A stretch of 64,000 nucleotides of DNA from NCBI GenBank assembly GCA_947305245.1, contig CAMZDG010000003.1:124001-188000 (forward strand), in the 5' to 3' direction. Shown piece after piece: positions 2,810-26,553 of this stretch (within the stretch, counting starts at the first letter, position 1; each line of letters begins with the position of its first letter). The DNA is from an uncultured Lachnospiraceae bacterium (lineage in GTDB: Bacteria > Bacillota > Clostridia > Lachnospirales > Lachnospiraceae). The notes beneath the pieces are model-generated. The model was not told the origin of the DNA. It ran no database searches and saw only the letters and a program-made list of their open reading frames with translations. The translations under genes were made by a program, and so were the position numbers.

Positions 2810-4060
2810 TTACTTCCGAAACAGCTCTGCCAGCTTCTCTTCCTTGAGGTTGGATCCGATGACGCAGATCTTTCCAGTCACCTCGGGCTTGCCAGTCCTT
2901 ACGTCCTGCTCCTCGGGCACGTAATCATAATAAATCCAGGTGCCGTCGCCCGCGGGAACCATGCCCTTTGCGCGAAGGATCACGCCGTACTCTCCGCTGT
3001 CCAAAGCGGACAGAATGGATTCGATCTCACTCTTGGAATACTGATTTGGCGTCTCCATGCCCCAGCTGGTGAACACTTCATCCGCATGGTGATGATGGTG
3101 ATGCTCATGGTCATGATCATGATCGTGACAGCCACAAGTGCAGTCAGGGCCATGCTCATGATGGTGATGATGCTCATGCTCGTCCTCGTCATCATCGTCA
3201 TCATCGTCGTGATGATGGTGGTGATGCTCATGCTCATGCTCATCGTCATCATCGTCGTGATGATGGTGGTGATGCTCATGCTCATGCTCATCGTCGTGAT
3301 GATGGTGGTGATGCTCGTGCTCGTCATCGTCGTCATCGTCGTCGTGATGATGATGGCCGCAGCCACACTCCTCGTCGTCATCGTCGTCATGGTGATGATG
3401 GTGGTGATGCTCGTGCTCCTCGTGCGCCTTCTCAAGCATCTCAGCCAACAGGTCTTCGAGCTTGTCAGCGCCCTCGATGGTATCCAGAACGGCCTTGCCC
3501 TCCAACTGCGCAAGGGGCGTCGTGATGATGGTCGCTTTCGCGTTATGCTCGCGGATCATGGCAACGCACTCTGCGATCTTCTCGGGAGTGGCCTTATCCG
3601 TGCGGCTCAAAATAATAGTGCCCGCATACTCGATCTGATTGATAAAGAACTCGCCAAAGTTCTTGATATACATTTTGCACTTCATGCAGTCCACGACGGC
3701 AACGGCGCTGTTCACCTGCACGTCCATGTCCTTTGCCACGTTCTCCACGGCCTTCAGCACGTCGGACAGCTTGCCGACGCCGGAGGGCTCGATCAGGATG
3801 CGTTCCGGCGCATACGTGGACACGACCTCCTTTAAGGAAGTGCCGAAATCACCTACCAGGGAACAGCAGATGCAACCGGAATTCATCTCCTTGATCTCGA
3901 TGCCGGAATCCTTCAGGAACCCGCCGTCGATGCCGATCTCACCGAACTCATTCTCGATCAGGACGGTCTTCGATCCGTCCAGCGCTTCCGCGAGAAGCTT
4001 CTTGATCAGGGTTGTCTTTCCGGCTCCCAGAAAACCGGATACGACGTCTATCTTTGTCAT
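2810..4060 (-). CDS. COG0523 metallochaperone GTPase with a long His/Asp-rich domain
   Basis: A 416-residue G3E GTPase with P-loop GFLGAGKTTL (residues 9-18), the metal-binding CxCC motif in SGCICCSL (61-68) and SRTD as the base-recognition motif. Residues 213-327 are almost entirely His, Asp and Glu, broken only by two CxC-type motifs (ECGCGH and DCTCGC). This far exceeds the short His stretches usual in the family. A CobW_C domain follows. COG0523 members are metal-transfer GTPases, often induced by zinc limitation, and the acidic/His tail would be expected to bind Zn, Ni or Co. A second COG0523 gene and a ZIP transporter lie downstream, which supports a metal-homeostasis role. Many out-of-frame ORFs here are shadows of the repeat. 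Confidence 0.88.
   Translation of the reverse strand: MTKIDVVSGFLGAGKTTLIKKLLAEALDGSKTVLIENEFGEIGIDGGFLKDSGIEIKEMNSGCICCSLVGDFGTSLKEVVSTYAPERILIEPSGVGKLSDVLKAVENVAKDMDVQVNSAVAVVDCMKCKMYIKNFGEFFINQIEYAGTIILSRTDKATPEKIAECVAMIREHNAKATIITTPLAQLEGKAVLDTIEGADKLEDLLAEMLEKAHEEHEHHHHHHHDDDDDEECGCGHHHHDDDDDDDEHEHHHHHHDDEHEHEHHHHHHDDDDDEHEHEHHHHHHDDDDDDDEDEHEHHHHHEHGPDCTCGCHDHDHDHEHHHHHHADEVFTSWGMETPNQYSKSEIESILSALDSGEYGVILRAKGMVPAGDGTWIYYDYVPEEQDVRTGKPEVTGKICVIGSNLKEEKLAELFRK
3080..3424 (-). repeat. His/Asp codon repeat tract (CAT/CAC/GAT/GAC/GAG)
   Basis: About 345 bases made of runs of His, Asp and Glu codons, read on plus as ATGRTGATG/ATCRTC-like repeats. Imperfect copies of a unit of roughly 50-60 bases (His6-Asp5 plus EHEHE) recur. 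All three frames stay open, producing spurious hydrophobic ORFs on plus. Confidence 0.9.
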
Positions 4061-7261: not shown

Positions 7262-8059
7262 TCACTTCATCAGTGACATGGTCCTTTGAAGCATCTCCCA
7301 TTCCATTTCTACTTCCCGAAGTCGCATCCTGCGGTTGGAATCTGCCCCTTCCGAAGCTTTGCCTTCCAGAGCAATTTCTTCCGCTCCTTCCGACGCTTTG
7401 TCTTCTGCCTCCCCTGAGGCGCGAAGCTGCTCCAATATGGTTCCCAGAATGCGTTCCTGCTCTTTTAAGTACTGGAAAAGGATCGGATCCTTTCTCCGGA
7501 TCAGGAGCTCGCCGTATCGGTCATAGAGCTCCCTGCACTCCTCCTCGGCCTCTGACTGGCCTTTCGCAAGCCGTGCCTTCATCGGGAAATAATACTTCCC
7601 GTCCTCGAAAACAATCCGCTCCTCTATTAGTTTATACCCATTCTCTCGCAAAAAGACCCGAAACTCACGAAGTTCTGACTGCGGCTGAAGCAAAAACTCC
7701 TCAAAGCTCTCCGTCTTTTCCGGATACGCCGTCAGGATCCTTTGCATCAGCGGGCCGCCCATGCCTGCGCAGACAAGGCTTTTCGCTTCGCCGGCCGCAA
7801 GCGCTTCCAGTCCGTCCGAAAGACGAGTCTCGATCCGGTCCGAAAGACCTGCCTGCCGCACGTGCTCCGTCGCCGCGGCCAACGGACCCTTTCGCACGTC
7901 CATGGCGATGGCGCCGTCCATCTTTCCCGTCTGCACCAGATAGAGGTCCAGAAAACCGTGGTCACATCCCACGTCGGCGACGATCCCACCCGGAGAAAGC
8001 ATGTCGGCAATGGCCGCAAGTCTCTTCGACAACGAGACGGGCTTCCCTTGCTTAATCAA
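7262..8059 (-). CDS. trmK: tRNA (adenine(22)-N(1))-methyltransferase TrmK
   Basis: A 265-residue class I SAM-dependent methyltransferase. The N-terminal SAM site is clear ([16 protein letters not shown], then [10 protein letters not shown]), with the TrmK-typical CAGMGGPLM loop and [11 protein letters not shown] stretch, and a C-terminal coiled segment. TrmK methylates N1 of A22 in tRNA in Firmicutes. It uses a TTG start that overlaps the end of rpoD by 8 bases, with an AAGGAT ribosome site embedded in the last rpoD codons. The C-terminus carries an extra low-complexity Glu/Ala/Ser segment ([13 protein letters not shown]) not needed for the fold. The rpoD-trmK order is conserved in Firmicutes and supports the call. 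Confidence 0.93.
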
Positions 8060-19345: not shown

Positions 19346-20752
19346 TTATTCCTGCGCGCCGTCGTCTTCCTCCATCATCGCCATCGCCTTTAACATGATG
19401 GCACATTCCACGCGCTTTCTCTCCAGTTCACATCCCACGTCATACGCGTCATTGATGTTCCCGTGGAAATTATAGGAATTCGCCGCACAGCCGCCGCTGC
19501 AATAAAACTTTGCGAAGCATTTCTTACACTTGTCCTTCGCGTATACGTTACAGCACTTGAACTGATCGCGAATGTCCTCCCGGACAATGCCCTCGTCCAC
19601 GTTGCCCATCAGGAACTCCTCGTTCCCGACGAACTGATGACAGGGATAGAGATCACCCCAGGGCGTCACCGCCAGGTACTCCGTTCCGGAGCCGCATCCC
19701 GACAGCCTCTTTGCCACGCAGGGGCCGCCTTCCAGATCGATCATAAAGTGGAAGAAATTGAAAGGTCTGCCTTCCCTTCTTCGCTTGATCATCTCCGCGG
19801 CAAGCTTATCATATTCTTCCCGAAGCTTGGGAAGATCCTCCTCACGGATGGCGTAATCATCCGTGGGCTGCGCCACGACGGGCTCCACGGAGATCTGCTG
19901 AAATCCAAGGTCGGCCAGATGTAGCACGTCCTCGGAAAAATCCAGGTTGTAACGGGTAAACGTGCCACGCACGTAATAATTCGTCTGATTCCGGCTCTCC
20001 GCCACCTTCTGAAACTTCGGTACGATCAGGTCGTAGCTGCCTTGTCCGCCGCGGAAGGGACGCATCTTGTCATGGATCTCCTTCCTTCCGTCGATGCTCA
20101 GCACCACGTTGCCCATCTCCTGGTTGGCGAATTCCAACACCTCGTCATTTAGAAGCACGCCGTTGGTCGTCAGGGTAAAGCGAAATTTCTTATTGTTTGC
20201 CGTCTCAATGCTGCGCCCGTACTTCACAAGGTCCTTGACCACCTGCCAGTTCATCAGGGGTTCGCCGCCGAAGAAATCCACCTCGAGATTCACGCGGTTT
20301 CCGGAATTGGCCACCAGGAAATCCAGTGCCTTCTTTCCGACCTCGAAACTCATGAGCGCCCGTCGCCCGTGGTATTCGCCCTCTTCCGCGAAGCAATACT
20401 TGCAGGCGAGGTTGCAGTCATGGGCGATGTGCAGGCAAAGTGCCTTGACCACGGTAGGCCTTTTCTTAAAATCGAAAACATAATTCTCGTAAATGTCCTT
20501 TGCGAACAGCTGTCCGCTCTTTTCCAGCTCCAGGACTTCGTCCACGGCCTCCACGATCTCCTCTTCCGGATAGGGGATGCCTGCCAGATGGACCACGGCC
20601 GCCTTGACGAGATCCGGATCCTTGATCCCTTCATTCACCAAGGGCTCCACCAGCGGGATCATGTCATACACGATGTCATCCACCACGTGAACGGAACCGC
20701 TGTTTACGTCCATTACGATATTCAGTCCATTACTTTTATATTGGTGTATCAC
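19346..20752 (-). CDS. scfB: SCIFF radical SAM maturase (SPASM protein)
   Basis: A 468-residue radical SAM enzyme. Residues 1-100 form a RiPP-recognition-like domain, the SAM-cluster motif is CNLACKYC (Cys113, Cys117, Cys120), and the C-terminal SPASM region has many cysteines (GGPCVAKRLSGCGSG, YPCHQF, CCNVYAKDKCKKCFAKFYCSGGCAANS) for auxiliary [4Fe-4S] clusters. The family installs a thioether crosslink in the SCIFF precursor, whose gene lies just upstream here. This pairing is near-universal in Clostridia and makes the call very safe. A hairpin between the two genes may lower expression of the enzyme relative to the peptide. The mature product's role is still unsettled. Confidence 0.96.
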   Translation of the reverse strand: MIHQYKSNGLNIVMDVNSGSVHVVDDIVYDMIPLVEPLVNEGIKDPDLVKAAVVHLAGIPYPEEEIVEAVDEVLELEKSGQLFAKDIYENYVFDFKKRPTVVKALCLHIAHDCNLACKYCFAEEGEYHGRRALMSFEVGKKALDFLVANSGNRVNLEVDFFGGEPLMNWQVVKDLVKYGRSIETANNKKFRFTLTTNGVLLNDEVLEFANQEMGNVVLSIDGRKEIHDKMRPFRGGQGSYDLIVPKFQKVAESRNQTNYYVRGTFTRYNLDFSEDVLHLADLGFQQISVEPVVAQPTDDYAIREEDLPKLREEYDKLAAEMIKRRREGRPFNFFHFMIDLEGGPCVAKRLSGCGSGTEYLAVTPWGDLYPCHQFVGNEEFLMGNVDEGIVREDIRDQFKCCNVYAKDKCKKCFAKFYCSGGCAANSYNFHGNINDAYDVGCELERKRVECAIMLKAMAMMEEDDGAQE

Positions 20753-20786: not shown

Positions 20787-20815
20787 ATAAGCAGCGACCT
20801 GGGATCGCTGCTTAT
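20787..20815 (-). terminator. Attenuator-like hairpin between scfA and scfB
   Basis: A perfect 11-bp stem (ATAAGCAGCGA/TCGCTGCTTAT) with a 7-base loop is followed on the minus strand by CTTTTGAGTTTTG. The T-run is interrupted, which suggests partial termination between precursor and maturase genes. Confidence 0.75.
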
Positions 20816-21145: not shown

Positions 21146-22339
21146 TTAGATCATGATCTCAAAGCTTTGACCGACCAGTACAAGGTAAGCCACGCCGCAG
21201 GCCACCTGATAGATAAAGACGGCAAGCGCCAGCGTCCTCCTCCAGAGGGGCAGACGATGCTTTTGCGAAAGCGCAAGCGCGATCACCGTTGAAAACTGCA
21301 CCGCGAGATCATAGCCCCAGCTAAAATCTCCGGAGGAACCATTGCTTAAGAAAAACATCTGCAGCCATCCGATCGCCAGCGCATAATAGGCCAGGCGATA
21401 GGTCCGCTCCTTGCCAAAGATCTTCGGAGAAAAAAGGAGCAGGGGCACGGGAAAGGTTGCAAGCGACACGCAGAGCACCTCCAGGGGCGTAAACTCCGCA
21501 AAGGAGCCAAAGCGTACCACAACTTCCATCGCTGCCGTCTCATCCTTTACGACAACGATCTGCCACAGCATGAGCGCGGCGGAAGGCAGTGCAGCCGCCA
21601 ATGCAGCGAAACCGATCTTTAAGGATCTGCTTCGGATCATCTGCTCTAAAACGATCACGGCCATCGCAAGCAGAAATACAAGCGCAAAGCTCGGCTTGGC
21701 GAGCACGGACAAAAAGCTTGCGACCCCAAAGAGCACGAGCTCCCTCCAGTAACTCTCCTTCTTCTCAAAACGCTCCAAAAACAGGAGAAACGCAAGGATC
21801 GTAAGGATCCCGATGGGTCTGACAAAAATAATCGTCGGATTGTGCACGGGATTCGCCGCGCACTGTCTCGCATAGTAGCGCCATTCGGTCAGCGGTCCCC
21901 TCGCCGTCACGAACACAACGGAGCAAAGGCTGATCAGATCCAGAAAAATCTTCTCTTTCTCATTCGCGGGCGACGCGACACGCAGTAAAAATACCCGAAG
22001 CAATGCCACGGCCGCTGCGATCGATGCGCCAAGCAGACAGTACGACGCCGCATAATAGCGATTTCCCATGAGAAATGCCAGGAGCTTCAGGCTTAAATGA
22101 TACAGGGGATAGGTCACGGCATGGATCGGTATGTTCGGATCCTCCGCCGCCATGCTTTCAAGGCTTTGATGGAACAGCTTTTCCGCGAACAGCGTGTGAT
22201 AGCCGCAGTCCCAACTGAAGGGGACGTAATGCCGATAGAACAGCGCATACGCAATGCCGATCAAAGCTGTCAAAGCGATAAAGCAGACCGGTTCCGCATT
22301 ACGGTTCCATGTCTTCTTCCGGTCGTTTTCAGGTTTCAT
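21146..22339 (-). CDS. Polytopic membrane protein, GT-C glycosyltransferase-like
   Basis: About 397 residues with some ten hydrophobic segments. After the first span comes a loop with FSWDCGYHTLFAEKLF, placing an acidic residue where GT-C glycosyltransferases carry their catalytic Asp/Glu. I do not recognise a named family. The start MKPENDRKK was chosen because GGGAGAAG precedes it; the gene then overlaps the end of gtrA by 11 bases. It is the last gene of an operon with a GtrB/ArnC-like glycosyltransferase and GtrA, so it fits the role of the third component of a GtrABC-type system, moving a sugar from undecaprenyl phosphate to a surface acceptor. That role is inferred. Confidence 0.65.
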   Translation of the reverse strand: MKPENDRKKTWNRNAEPVCFIALTALIGIAYALFYRHYVPFSWDCGYHTLFAEKLFHQSLESMAAEDPNIPIHAVTYPLYHLSLKLLAFLMGNRYYAASYCLLGASIAAAVALLRVFLLRVASPANEKEKIFLDLISLCSVVFVTARGPLTEWRYYARQCAANPVHNPTIIFVRPIGILTILAFLLFLERFEKKESYWRELVLFGVASFLSVLAKPSFALVFLLAMAVIVLEQMIRSRSLKIGFAALAAALPSAALMLWQIVVVKDETAAMEVVVRFGSFAEFTPLEVLCVSLATFPVPLLLFSPKIFGKERTYRLAYYALAIGWLQMFFLSNGSSGDFSWGYDLAVQFSTVIALALSQKHRLPLWRRTLALAVFIYQVACGVAYLVLVGQSFEIMI

Positions 22340-22838
22340 CTTCTTCTCCCTTGCCTTCATTACTGGGGCGGAATGCCCAGAACTTGTTGATGACGAAATT
22401 GATGGGCACGCTAATGACCAGATTCAACATGGGCGCGAGCATCTTTGAGATCCCCAGCTTGTCGATCCAAACGTAGGACAACGCGTTACAGATAAAGATA
22501 CCGGACACGGAATAGGCCAGATAGGTTTTCAACAGGGCCTTCCCAAGATGGCGTTTCTGCCCCTTTTCCAGCGTGAACACCAGCCGATTGTTCCAGTAAA
22601 AGGACCAAAGCACGCTCAGCATGAACGCGACGAAATTACCCACGTAATAATCCCAGGACAGCTCATAGGGTGCCAGGATCTTTAAGGTCAAAATATTTAA
22701 TACATAACTGACGATCGTATTGCTGACGCCGATCACGCAGAACTTTACGAACTGCACGAAGGAATCCACGGCTTTTTCAGACAGCCGGATCGGCAGGATC
22801 GCAAGCGCCCATCTCGTTAGTTTTTCAATGATCTTCAT
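22329..22838 (-). CDS. GtrA family membrane protein
   Basis: A 169-residue protein with four membrane spans. The first contains VKFCVIGVSNTIVSYVLN and a later stretch reads LSVLWSFYWNNRLVF, both diagnostic of GtrA/GtcA proteins. These are thought to flip undecaprenyl-phosphate-linked monosaccharides across the cytoplasmic membrane. The gene lies between the aminotransferase and the GT-C-like protein and overlaps the latter, so coupled translation is likely. A second GtrA occurs at 34.6 kb without glycosyltransferase neighbours. Confidence 0.9.
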   Translation of the reverse strand: MKIIEKLTRWALAILPIRLSEKAVDSFVQFVKFCVIGVSNTIVSYVLNILTLKILAPYELSWDYYVGNFVAFMLSVLWSFYWNNRLVFTLEKGQKRHLGKALLKTYLAYSVSGIFICNALSYVWIDKLGISKMLAPMLNLVISVPINFVINKFWAFRPSNEGKGEEDET

Positions 22839-22870: not shown

Positions 22871-23968
22871 TTACTTAAATGCATTGATCGTCTCGATCAC
22901 GTGGTCCTGCTCTTCCTTTGTCATCCCGTTATACAGCGGAATGGAAAGAACCGTCTTCGCATACTCTTCCGTGATGGGCAGAGCTCCCTCTTTCATCCCT
23001 AAGTATCGATATGCCTCGGACAGATGCGGCGGGATCGGATAATGAATGATCGTACCAATGCCATTTTCATCTAAATATCGCAGCAATTCATCCCTTTGCG
23101 CGGAGCGGATCACGAACTGATGCCAGATGTGCGTTGCTCCTTCGCGGATCTTGGGAAGCGCTATCTCCTCATGCTTCAATTCCCGCAAATATCGTTCACA
23201 GATCCGGCGCTTCTCCTCGGCCAGCTCCCCTAAGTGCGCAAGCCTTACACGAAGCAGACCAGCCTGCAGCTCGTCCAGGCGGGAGTTCGTTCCGACCACC
23301 TTGTTATAATAACGCTTTTCCGAGCCGTAGTTACGAAACACGCGAAAATCCTCGGCAATCTGATCATCATTCGTCACGATCGCACCGGCGTCGCCAAAGG
23401 CGCCAAGATTCTTCGAGGGATAAAAGGAAAAGCATCCCACGTCGCCAAAGGTTCCGATCTGCTTCCCCTGAAAAGTGGCTCCATGCGCCTGCGCACAGTC
23501 CTCCACAAGCCTTAAATGATATTTCTTACAAAGCGCCGTAATGGGAGCCATGTTGGAAGCCTGTCCATAAAGATGCACCACCAGGATCGCCTTTGTTCTC
23601 TCAGTGATCTTTTCCTCAATCTTGGATGCATCCAAGTTAAAGTATTCATCAGGCTCCACGAACACCGGCGTTGCGCCATTGATCGTGATCCCCATCACGC
23701 TCGCGATATAGGTGTTGCCCTGAACGATCACCTCGTCGCCCGCGCCGATCCCAAGGACCCGAAATGCGATCCAAAGAGCATCTAAACCGCTCGCCAGGCC
23801 AACGCAGTGCTTCGCGCCAACGTAAGCTGCAAACTCCTCCTCGAAGGACTTCACTTCCTTCCCCAGCACGTACCAGCCGGACCGAAGCACCTCGAGCGCC
23901 TTTGCCTCAAATTCTTCCTGATATTGAAAAAAGCCCCGATCGAGGCGATTGGGCGAAATCCTCTCCAT
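22871..23968 (-). CDS. Sugar-nucleotide aminotransferase, FdtB-like (DegT/DnrJ/EryC1)
   Basis: A 365-residue PLP enzyme of the DegT/DnrJ/EryC1/StrS family. The Schiff-base lysine is Lys186 in CFSFYPSKNLGAFGDAG; VEDCAQAHGA provides the PLP-binding Asp, and GSEKRYYNKVVGTNSRLDELQA is the substrate-loop signature. Together with the FdtA-like ketoisomerase in the same operon it most likely aminates C3 of dTDP-3-keto-6-deoxyhexose to give dTDP-Fuc3N or dTDP-Qui3N. Which epimer is made depends on the ketoisomerase and cannot be read here. It is followed by gtrA and preceded by 5 bases by the hexapeptide acyltransferase. Confidence 0.88.
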   Translation of the reverse strand: MERISPNRLDRGFFQYQEEFEAKALEVLRSGWYVLGKEVKSFEEEFAAYVGAKHCVGLASGLDALWIAFRVLGIGAGDEVIVQGNTYIASVMGITINGATPVFVEPDEYFNLDASKIEEKITERTKAILVVHLYGQASNMAPITALCKKYHLRLVEDCAQAHGATFQGKQIGTFGDVGCFSFYPSKNLGAFGDAGAIVTNDDQIAEDFRVFRNYGSEKRYYNKVVGTNSRLDELQAGLLRVRLAHLGELAEEKRRICERYLRELKHEEIALPKIREGATHIWHQFVIRSAQRDELLRYLDENGIGTIIHYPIPPHLSEAYRYLGMKEGALPITEEYAKTVLSIPLYNGMTKEEQDHVIETINAFK

Positions 23969-23973
23969 CTTCC

Positions 23974-24672
23974 TTACCTCACGTCCCTGACTACTTTGGC
24001 CGGGATCCCCATGACCACCTTATTTTCCGGCACGTCCTTTGTCACCACGGCGCCCGCCCCTACGATCGCGTTCCGCCCAATGACAACGTGCGGTAAAATA
24101 TTGGCAGCGGCACCGATCGTAACATAATCCTCAATCTTTGCGCCATATACGTGATCAGGATCATACTCCTCACGCCCCATGGTGTTGTCATTCGTCGTAG
24201 CCACAAGCACACTGATAAAAACATGATCCCCAATGATCATGTTTCCCGTAATGTGCGAATTGTCCATGATTTTCGTGTCATTTCCAATTTTCGTGTTGTA
24301 GTTCACGGAAACATTTCTGCTCAGGATGCAGCGGTCACCGATCACGCATTCCTCCCTGACGGAGCAATGATCCCCAAAAAGATTCCGATCGCCGATCGTT
24401 GTGCCTGCATATAGGATCACGCCCGGCGACAAAACACAGTGCTCGCCGACGACAAGCGGAGCATAGTTATCTTTCAGCACCCTGGAAGTGATCCCGGGAG
24501 AAACCGGAGGCTTTCCCAACACACAATGATCAAAGATTTCCGTCCCTTTTTTTACGACAGTACCCGGATAGATCACGACATAATCATGGATCACGACATC
24601 TTCTTCTATCCGTACTCCATCATGAATGATCGCCGTCGATGCGACGTGGGCATTTTGACTGATCTGATTCAT
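23974..24672 (-). CDS. Left-handed beta-helix acyltransferase, FdtC-like
   Basis: About 232 residues dominated by hexapeptide repeats ([LIV]Gxxxx) forming a left-handed beta helix, e.g. [20 protein letters not shown] and [16 protein letters not shown]. The length exceeds a short FdtC and includes an N-terminal repeat block. The start [10 protein letters not shown] was taken because GAGGAG lies before it; the track start is an upstream TTG. Next to FdtA- and FdtB-like genes it should N-acylate the 3-amino sugar nucleotide using an acyl-CoA. It begins one base from the end of the MaoC-type hydratase gene, so the acyl donor may not be acetyl-CoA. This is inference. Confidence 0.82.
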
Positions 24673-24673
24673 T

Positions 24674-25084
24674 TTATTTCTCCTCAACCGGAACTTTTAC
24701 GATCGCATATCCGTCAACCACCATTTCCTCCCGTTGGTTATACACGATCGTAGACAATTCCAAAATTCCTTTTTCCTCGTTTCGAATACTCTTGATCTGG
24801 GCAACAATCCTGATCTCGTCACCCAGATAAACAGGCTTTATAAACTTCATGTCCTGTTCCAGATAGATGGTTCCCTCCCCCGGAAATCTCATTCCGATAT
24901 GAGCTGAGATCAAGCTGCCGACAAGCATCCCGTGTGCGATCCGTTTTCCAAACTGGCTTGCCCTGGCCGCCGTCTCATCCACGTGAATTGGATTAAAGTC
25001 ACCGGACAGCTCTGCAAACGCCTTTACGATATCCTCAGTGATCGTACTCTTTATTTCTTCTGACATTCCTACGGTATACTTCAC
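24674..25084 (-). CDS. MaoC-like (R)-specific enoyl-CoA hydratase
   Basis: A 136-residue hot-dog protein with the hydratase-2 signature: [18 protein letters not shown] with Asp29, Asn31 and His34, then [16 protein letters not shown]. This matches PhaJ-type (R)-hydratases, which add water to trans-2-enoyl-CoA to form (R)-3-hydroxyacyl-CoA. The start is a GTG five bases after GGAGGAG. Its position is unusual: it sits inside an amino-sugar biosynthesis operon, directly before the acyltransferase and after the glycosyltransferase. It could supply a 3-hydroxyacyl-CoA such as 3-hydroxybutyryl-CoA for N-acylation of the sugar. An unrelated metabolic role cannot be excluded. Confidence 0.87.
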
Positions 25085-25117: not shown

Positions 25118-26053
25118 TTATTTTCTCTCATCCGCATCCTGGCCATCCTCAACAATATATGGCGGCCTTTTCCTGGAAGCGTCAAAGGTTCTCCACAGAT
25201 ACTCACCCAAAATACCCATGGAAAGCATGAGCACGCCGAAGCTGAGCAGCTGGAAAATGAACAATGTCGTAAAACCGTCAGCGGAGATGTTCCCGCCAAG
25301 CTTTGCAATGAGAACGACGATCGCCCAGATGATCCCGGCCACGAAGGTGATAAATCCCACGATCTCCAGCAGTCTGATCGGCAACGTGGAAAAACTAAAC
25401 AGCGTGTCGGAGACAAGGCGGATCTTCTTTTTCAACGTCCACTTGCTTGTCCCGATCTCCCTTGCCTTCCTGACGTAATACACGATCCCGGTCCGGAAAC
25501 CGCTCCAAAGGATCTGCCCGGTAATGGCGCTGTTCTTTTCATCCAGGCTGTCGATCACGTTGATCACCTTGCGGTCCAAAAGATAAACGTCAAAGCCATT
25601 CTTCGGCATCTGCGGCAGCGCCGCCTTGCGCACCATCCAATAATACAGGTTGGCGAATCCCTTCTGACTCTTGCTCTCCTCCCTGTCCTTGCGGCAGGCG
25701 AGCACCACGTTGTTCCCGGCCTTCCAGCTGTCCACCATCTCCAGGATCAGTTCCGTCGGCTCCTGCAGGTCTGCCGCCTTGATCACGGCGCAGTCCCCCG
25801 TGGAGTTTGCAAGACCGCAAAGGCATGCGGCATGAGACCCGAAATTTCTCGCCAGGGAGAAAATCTTCAGGTTGGGATCCTCGGCCGCCAGGGCCTGCAT
25901 GACCTCATAGCTCTTATCCTTAGAACCGTCATTGACCATGACGATCTCATATTCATAATCGATCTTAGAAATAAATTTCTCTTTTAGGTCCGCATATAAG
26001 GGTCGCAGGTTCTCCTCGTTATAATAGACCGGAATAATAATGGAAACCTTCAT
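25118..26053 (-). CDS. GT2 glycosyltransferase, GtrB/ArnC/DPM1-like
   Basis: A 311-residue family 2 glycosyltransferase. The N-terminus MKVSIIIPVYYNEENL and VNDGSKDKS form the nucleotide-binding part, AADLQEPTE is the metal-binding region, and two membrane spans follow after residue 230 (LLEIVGFITFVAGIIWAIVV, then a second). This is the layout of enzymes that load a sugar onto polyprenyl phosphate. The first Asp of the usual DADLQ is Ala; ArnC-type enzymes also deviate here (GADLQ), so this need not mean inactivity. It starts right after the FdtA-like gene with touching stop and start codons. It is inferred to transfer the amino sugar to undecaprenyl phosphate. Confidence 0.88.
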   Translation of the reverse strand: MKVSIIIPVYYNEENLRPLYADLKEKFISKIDYEYEIVMVNDGSKDKSYEVMQALAAEDPNLKIFSLARNFGSHAACLCGLANSTGDCAVIKAADLQEPTELILEMVDSWKAGNNVVLACRKDREESKSQKGFANLYYWMVRKAALPQMPKNGFDVYLLDRKVINVIDSLDEKNSAITGQILWSGFRTGIVYYVRKAREIGTSKWTLKKKIRLVSDTLFSFSTLPIRLLEIVGFITFVAGIIWAIVVLIAKLGGNISADGFTTLFIFQLLSFGVLMLSMGILGEYLWRTFDASRKRPPYIVEDGQDADERK

Positions 26054-26476
26054 CTACTTGGCATCTCCGTTGATTATCTTGATGAAATCCTCATAGTTGC
26101 GAATGTACTCTTTGCCGTCATAATGCGTGCTTGCGAGGCAAAGAAGCACGGAATCCGGACTGAAGTCATACATCTCCTTCCAGACCATCTTCGGAAGGTA
26201 GATCCCGGTATGAGGACGATTGAGCGAATAGATCGCCTCGTTGCCCTTTCCATCCTTCACCTTGATCTTACTGGTGCCTGCCACGTTGATCAGCACGAAT
26301 TCACTCTCCTGATTGGCATGCTGCCCTCTGACCACGTCCTTGTCGGAACCGTAAATATAAAAAATCCTCTTGATCTCAAAGGGAACGTCTTCCATGCCCT
26401 CCACGATGACAAGATGTCCTCTTTCGTCTCCTTTTTGAGAGAATTCAAGCATCTGCACGGAATTCATCACATTCAT
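26054..26476 (-). CDS. FdtA/QdtA-like dTDP-4-dehydro-6-deoxyglucose ketoisomerase
   Basis: A 140-residue single-domain cupin of the sugar 3,4-ketoisomerase family. DERGHLVIVEG, FEIKRIFYIYGSDKDVVRGQHAN with the conserved Arg50 and His53, and a PHTGIYLPKMVWKEM stretch fit FdtA/QdtA. It moves the keto group from C4 to C3 of dTDP-4-keto-6-deoxyglucose, the step before C3 amination by the FdtB-like enzyme in this operon. FdtA and QdtA differ in C4 stereochemistry, and the motif alone does not decide which applies. It is the first gene after a good promoter. The rml genes that make its substrate are not in the window. Confidence 0.9.
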   Translation of the reverse strand: MNVMNSVQMLEFSQKGDERGHLVIVEGMEDVPFEIKRIFYIYGSDKDVVRGQHANQESEFVLINVAGTSKIKVKDGKGNEAIYSLNRPHTGIYLPKMVWKEMYDFSPDSVLLCLASTHYDGKEYIRNYEDFIKIINGDAK

Positions 26477-26524: not shown

Positions 26525-26553
26525 ATAGTACCATAGAATGGCAGGTACGTCAA
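26525..26553 (-). promoter_or_regulatory. Promoter of the amino-sugar operon
   Basis: TTGACG (26548-26553), 17 bases, TACTAT (26525-26530) on the minus strand, about 50 bases upstream of the FdtA-like gene. No terminator-like hairpin is evident from here to the end of the seven-gene operon. Confidence 0.75.

Follow-up and report, generated by a model that had tools for sequence, protein, structure and literature searches.

A MaoC-type hydratase gene paired with a sugar N-acyltransferase gene in a Lachnospiraceae glycan operon: a probable supply of (R)-3-hydroxyacyl-CoA for one surface sugar

The 3-hydroxybutyryl group is among the most abundant fatty-acid substituents on the amino sugars of bacterial glycans (PMC10609480). 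The source of a single-enantiomer 3-hydroxybutyryl donor is rarely known. In the anthrose operon antABCD of Bacillus anthracis/cereus, a hydratase gene accompanies the gene of a sugar N-acyltransferase whose donor is a 3-hydroxyacyl-CoA, and this hydratase, AntA, is presumably a crotonase-type protein. FdhC of Acinetobacter nosocomialis reportedly N-acylates dTDP-3-amino-3,6-dideoxyhexose with 3-hydroxybutyryl, and we know of no MaoC paired with it. FdhC is named as a sugar N-acyltransferase in a title cited in PMC12273574, and AntD with its acyl-CoA, 3-hydroxy-3-methylbutyryl-CoA, is cited in PMC8141488. In the O-antigen locus of Flavobacterium psychrophilum, the R-group genes wfpC-G comprise acyl-donor genes in the style of fatty-acid synthesis (ACP, ketosynthases, ketoreductase) beside a PglD-type sugar N-acyltransferase (PMC6519341). 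The placing of acyl-donor genes beside a sugar acyltransferase is already known from F. psychrophilum and from the anthrose operon.

Among solved structures, QdtB and QdtC of Thermoanaerobacterium thermosaccharolyticum come closest to the aminotransferase and acyltransferase described here; in that organism, the QdtA/QdtB/QdtC system serves dTDP-Qui3NAc. The window (the whole stretch of DNA that was analysed, 64,000 nucleotides) has a seven-gene operon with the same ketoisomerase, aminotransferase and beta-helix N-acyltransferase families, but it differs from the Qdt system in carrying a MaoC gene. The features of the operon, in the direction of transcription, are as follows:

26525..26553, minus strand: promoter-like site, TTGACG-17-TACTAT with TG (consensus match only)
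26054..26476, minus strand: FdtA/QdtA-type dTDP-sugar 3,4-ketoisomerase, 140 aa (PF05523 E 2.7e-43; solved relatives 7n67, QdtA 4zu7/4o9e)
25118..26053, minus strand: GT2 glycosyltransferase, PgfS/ArnC type (PF00535; NCBIfam PgfS E 9e-63 and ArnC E 1e-48, both under the curated cut-offs)
24674..25084, minus strand: MaoC / hydratase-2, predicted (R)-specific enoyl-CoA hydratase, 136 aa (PF01575; 5cpg/1iq6)
23974..24672, minus strand: left-handed beta-helix nucleotide-sugar N-acyltransferase (AT), 232 aa (PF00132; QdtC 3fs8)
22871..23968, minus strand: DegT/QdtB-type PLP 3-aminotransferase, 365 aa (PF01041 E 2.5e-116; QdtB 3frk E 4e-119)
22329..22838, minus strand: GtrA-family membrane protein, candidate flippase for a lipid-linked sugar (PF04138 E 1.6e-20)
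21146..22360, minus strand: polytopic membrane protein, 404 aa, candidate extracytoplasmic sugar transferase (by position only)
20787..20815, minus strand: terminator-like hairpin of 13 pairs, 3' of the last operon gene (consensus match only)

From first to last, the genes are separated by 0, 33, 1, 5, 32 and −32 bases. The original prediction had a hydratase and an acyltransferase gene lying one base apart inside a sugar operon. We found both genes in place on the minus strand, as the third and fourth of the run, with a single base between the maoC stop and the AT ATG, and with ketoisomerase, aminotransferase and GT2 genes adjoining them. The ribosome site of the AT, GAGGAG, sits within the last codons of maoC, and, given the one-base gap, translation of the two genes would therefore likely be coupled. 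The maoC frame starts with GTG at 25084, just downstream of GGAGGAG, in a position that fits the N-termini of its relatives; an internal ATG lies at 25066. The promoter-like site, 48 bases 5' of the FdtA gene, and the hairpin could be the boundaries of the operon. For the 404-aa membrane protein, a search for a family match found none, and a single-sequence structure model (pLDDT 44) was too poor to use.

Two other parts of the window were noted. A radical SAM protein with a CxxxCxxC motif and a Cys-rich C-terminus is encoded on the same strand just 3' of the operon (19346-20752); it looks like the kind that matures ribosomal peptides, and looks separate from the operon. At 2810-4060, a CobW/G3E-type GTPase carries an extremely His/Asp/Glu-rich metal-binding stretch; after it come another CobW-like gene and one for a ZIP-type transporter.

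The ketoisomerase and 3-aminotransferase accompany the AT as expected for a QdtC-type context. The best solved relatives of the ketoisomerase are 7n67, an FdtA-domain protein, and QdtA 4zu7/4o9e (E 8e-34 to 5e-32). In the window genome, we observed RmlB (dTDP-glucose 4,6-dehydratase) at 492 bits against a cut-off of 365, and a search of the same genome for CDP-glucose 4,6-dehydratase gave none over the cut-off; a dTDP-3-amino-3,6-dideoxyhexose is therefore favoured. Together with the QdtB and QdtC relationships, this agrees with the dTDP-3-amino sugar proposed at the outset. At two positions that we take to decide between FdtA and QdtA (Fuc3N or Qui3N product), the ketoisomerase has Arg and Lys, a clear match to neither, and the sugar may be of the gluco or the galacto form.

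A CDP-linked sugar had been raised as a candidate by RfbG genes near the cassette in three related loci (L019, L020 and L100), and was rejected for the window genome on the two dehydratase results. In these relatives, CDP-glucose 4,6-dehydratase lies in the locus itself (L019:149-6184, L020:2897-3997, L100:14875-19901), so a CDP-linked sugar is possible there. Two more genes of the L019 and L100 loci, for an RfbH-like dehydratase and for a ThDP enzyme resembling acetolactate synthase, recall CDP-yersiniose pathways.

The MaoC protein matched PF01575 with E 1.6e-24 and 86.3 bits, over the cut-off of 27, and its nearest solved structures are the (R)-specific enoyl-CoA hydratases 5cpg and 1iq6/PhaJ. 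In PhaJ, a C4-C6 enzyme, Asp31 and His36 form the catalytic dyad, and Leu65 and Val130 set the chain length (PMC4823750). When MaoC residues are counted from the internal ATG and not from the GTG start, Asp23/His28 align to this dyad, and Ser54/Ile57/Val123 of the pocket align to PhaJ Ser62/Leu65/Val130. The dyad was present in 9/9 glycan-linked copies aligned, and the glycan-linked copies have PhaJ-like Ser, Ile or Leu, and Val at the pocket positions. The fold family, the dyad and the chain-limiting residues are thus shared with PhaJ, which bears out the hydratase-2 assignment made at first sight. MaoC probably hydrates crotonyl-CoA to (R)-3-hydroxybutyryl-CoA, the direction being an assumption since the hydratase-2 reaction is reversible (PMC4823750). 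The two enzymes differ in that PhaJ supplies a PHA synthase: in the window genome (assembly 94.6% complete), no PF07167 match was found, and a PHA monomer-supply role (PhaJ-PhaC) for MaoC was rejected on this ground.

We observed in the window genome a single operon, thl-crt-hbd-bcd (thiolase, crotonase, 3-hydroxybutyryl-CoA dehydrogenase, acyl-CoA dehydrogenase), forming the butyrate core. Crotonyl-CoA and (S)-3-hydroxybutyryl-CoA are therefore expected, in line with the crotonyl-CoA supply that the original prediction had assumed. The 3-hydroxybutyryl-CoA of crotonase and 3-hydroxybutyryl-CoA dehydrogenase is the (S) form; only for the (R) form would the cell need a hydratase-2. Apart from the window maoC, the assembly (94.6% complete) has no PF01575 gene, and the only PF00378 (crotonase) gene of the genome is that of the butyrate operon. 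The operon pairs a hydratase with a sugar N-acyltransferase as the anthrose system does, but its hydratase is a MaoC/hydratase-2 and not a crotonase-type protein like AntA, and its AT is a beta-helix protein; the acyl group of the anthrose system is 3-hydroxy-3-methylbutyryl. An anthrose-type (AntA/AntD) assignment was dropped, as the operon hydratase belongs to PF01575 and the sole PF00378 gene lies elsewhere.

Descriptions of the (R)-3-hydroxybutyryl group exist for the GlcNAc3NA of P. shigelloides O51 (PMC3210612, PMC10609480) and for the pseudaminate of S. boydii 7 (PMC3628348), and a 1995 reference in PMC3628348 names D-3-hydroxybutyryl on Fuc3N in its title. These are the sugar types of three of the MaoC locus types reported here. 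The (S)-3-hydroxybutyryl group is likewise common in glycans, and the (R) stereochemistry here is therefore a prediction. The same gene pair could also serve another (R)-3-hydroxyacyl-CoA, with the AT transferring 3-hydroxyhexanoyl, 2-methyl-3-hydroxybutyryl or 3-hydroxy-3-methylbutyryl. This we consider unlikely: PhaJ-type enzymes do range from C4 to C6, glycans bearing 3-hydroxy-3-methylbutyryl exist and its CoA ester is used in anthrose biosynthesis (PMC8141488), but crotonyl-CoA is the enoyl-CoA for which the genome is clearly equipped, and the pocket residues of MaoC are as bulky as those of PhaJ.

The AT belongs to the hexapeptide proteins (PF00132, E 8.5e-32) and has a conserved TND motif; its nearest solved relative is QdtC (3fs8), E 8.7e-25 across residues 2-231. 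In the family tree, QdtC itself groups with L093-L095, whereas the branches nearest to the window AT are L018-L020 and L100, followed by L101-L104. Because QdtC falls elsewhere, the AT is QdtC-like in context and not an orthologue. A fold search with a structure model of the AT (4-row alignment, pLDDT 69) gave no significant match. FdhC is proposed to share the acyl group and the sugar type with the window AT, but FdhC has the GNAT fold and the AT is a beta-helix protein. That QdtC is an acetyltransferase speaks against an (R)-3-hydroxybutyryl donor.

We compared 63 AT homologues, with neighbourhoods taken from order, family and phylum samples. The cassette FdtA-GT2-MaoC-AT-DegT is common to L018 (Butyrivibrio sp. 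M55), L019 (an Acetatifactor MAG) and L020 (Pseudobutyrivibrio; maoC at 7568-7999), where the AT is 77-80% and MaoC 52-60% identical to the window proteins. In L100, whose AT is 58% identical, the order is FdtA-AT-MaoC, so that the pair is inverted, and no DegT gene lies alongside; MaoC and AT are still adjacent. MaoC adjoins 5/5 ATs of one clade (the closest five, including that of the window; SH-aLRT 97) and 0/58 of the other homologues; these five ATs are related to each other, and the sample includes short contigs and several MAGs. On the AT tree, the linkage needs one change, and 0/500 shuffles were as low. Thus, MaoC presence does track a distinct AT clade, as had been put forward for testing in silico, and the pairing is confirmed not to be a matter of chance. 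The nearest sister ATs, L102-L104 (about 46% identical), occur with FdtA and DegT and without MaoC, and RmlA/RmlB-like genes are also found in the L102 and L104 loci. Given these sisters and the single change, MaoC was gained or lost together with the divergence of the AT. Some positions are kept in the MaoC-linked ATs and differ in the other ATs.

The clade-specific linkage argues for an AT donor other than acetyl-CoA. If the AT were a plain QdtC-like acetyltransferase, the MaoC product would go into some other acylation of this glycan or into another process. The naming of QdtC as an N-acetyltransferase and the sister ATs that lack MaoC in similar operons are in keeping with such a scheme, but among the operon products no further acyltransferase family was recognised (the 404-aa protein having no family match), and no PHA synthase match in the genome offers MaoC another outlet. 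As MaoC also directly adjoins acyltransferases of four families, we regard this scheme as quite improbable.

These further pairings came from glycan-locus MaoCs gathered by a profile search with five operon MaoCs and from loci of a prior search; a query of the window type may have passed over other glycan MaoCs. L196 has an LpxD-like AT and MaoC in the company of WecB, a Gfo/Idh oxidoreductase (a UDP-GlcNAc 3-dehydrogenase relative) and a UDP-sugar dehydrogenase, the gene content of a diamino-uronate pathway. L015 has a similar gene set, including an LpxD-like AT, with a different MaoC. In L197, the MaoC gene overlaps that of a PglD-like AT, and in L214 it follows the gene of a WecD-related GNAT, to which TDP-fucosamine acetyltransferase comes closest among solved structures. 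L008 has a pseudaminate operon in which PseI and PseG flank a hexapeptide AT and a MaoC. Such independent pairings with unrelated acyltransferases lend the original idea added support.

On a tree of 74 MaoCs, the window type together with L196, L197 and L214/L003 formed a group of 8 rows set apart from the MaoCs of acyl-CoA metabolism, with bootstrap 93 and SH-aLRT 74, a moderate support obtained from a short protein (133 alignment columns). The long-branched L008 and L015 fall outside this group, which takes the number of recruitments on the drawn tree to three; no well-supported branch stands against a single origin, which may also hold. The glycan-locus labels needed 3 changes on this tree, compared with 9.6 in shuffles, and 0/500 shuffles were as low. 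This clustering bears on a further alternative, in which MaoC acts as a dehydratase, or in fermentation or fatty-acid metabolism, and sits in the operon by chance or hitch-hiking. The reversibility of the reaction (PMC4823750) and the many MaoCs of the phylum that adjoin acyl-CoA genes fit that alternative, but the linkage is clade-specific and persists despite gene shuffling and partner swapping, and we hold this alternative to be very unlikely.

Compared with the donor-gene and acyltransferase neighbourhoods already known, what is added here is a MaoC hydratase in this role and the combination of one MaoC group with four acyltransferase families. A broader reading is that a mobile, glycan-dedicated MaoC group of Lachnospiraceae acts as an interchangeable supply of (R)-3-hydroxybutyryl-CoA, paired with at least four unrelated sugar ATs (QdtC-like, LpxD-like, PglD-like, GNAT), and diverts butyrate-fermentation carbon into glycan acylation; we give it equal weight for and against. 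A description of MaoC in glycan loci was not found in the open-access literature.

Some other MaoC loci were observed alongside these. In L214:3420-5000, a PIG-L deacetylase and a formyltransferase-like gene come after the GNAT-MaoC pair, which points to a glycan locus with several N-acyl variants. In L215:2143-7980 (also L010, L011 and L016), a MaoC of a distant class is preceded by an MBOAT acyltransferase plus an SGNH/DltD-like protein and followed by an SDR reductase. An FkbH-like gene is close by, and the set could be a module that supplies donors for the O-acylation of exported glycans. The same distant class occurs in L012, L013 and L014, from the genus of the window, beside transketolase subunits, with an MBOAT-like membrane protein in 2/3. 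In L017:1459-2631, a divergent MaoC has Asn instead of Asp in the dyad; a NeuD/PglD-like acyltransferase flanks it on one side and a CitE/HpcH-type lyase on the other, and a malyl- or citramalyl-type acyl donor is possible.

On our best reading, maoC and the AT form a donor module dedicated to (R)-3-hydroxyacyl-CoA, whose acyl chain is probably C4. We consider it likely, with good though incomplete confidence, that the two genes are a supply and transfer pair for one surface sugar, bringing (R)-3-hydroxybutyryl from crotonyl-CoA onto dTDP-3-amino-3,6-dideoxyhexose. RmlA/B, the FdtA-type ketoisomerase and the QdtB-type aminotransferase would make the sugar. MaoC would hydrate crotonyl-CoA of the butyrate pathway to (R)-3-hydroxybutyryl-CoA; the main pathway, with its S-type crotonase and 3-hydroxybutyryl-CoA dehydrogenase, would not yield this enantiomer. 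The AT would use this C4 (R)-3-hydroxyacyl-CoA as donor instead of acetyl-CoA, and probably attaches the MaoC product to the 3-amino group of the sugar. Donor genes would then adjoin the sugar acyltransferase as in F. psychrophilum wfpC-G, but with enoyl-CoA hydration in place of a fatty-acid-synthesis-style donor.

In three-component glycosylation systems, a sugar is loaded onto undecaprenyl phosphate, flipped and transferred outside. By analogy, the PgfS/ArnC-like GT2, GtrA and the polytopic membrane protein suggest such a route, which we infer from gene content: the GT2 probably loads the finished, acylated sugar onto undecaprenyl phosphate, GtrA would flip the lipid-linked sugar, and the 404-aa membrane protein would then add it to a surface polymer. 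The pairing of maoC and AT would tie surface antigen chemistry to butyrate fermentation, and maoC beside a sugar acyltransferase would be a genetic marker predicting (R)-form glycans in gut Lachnospiraceae.
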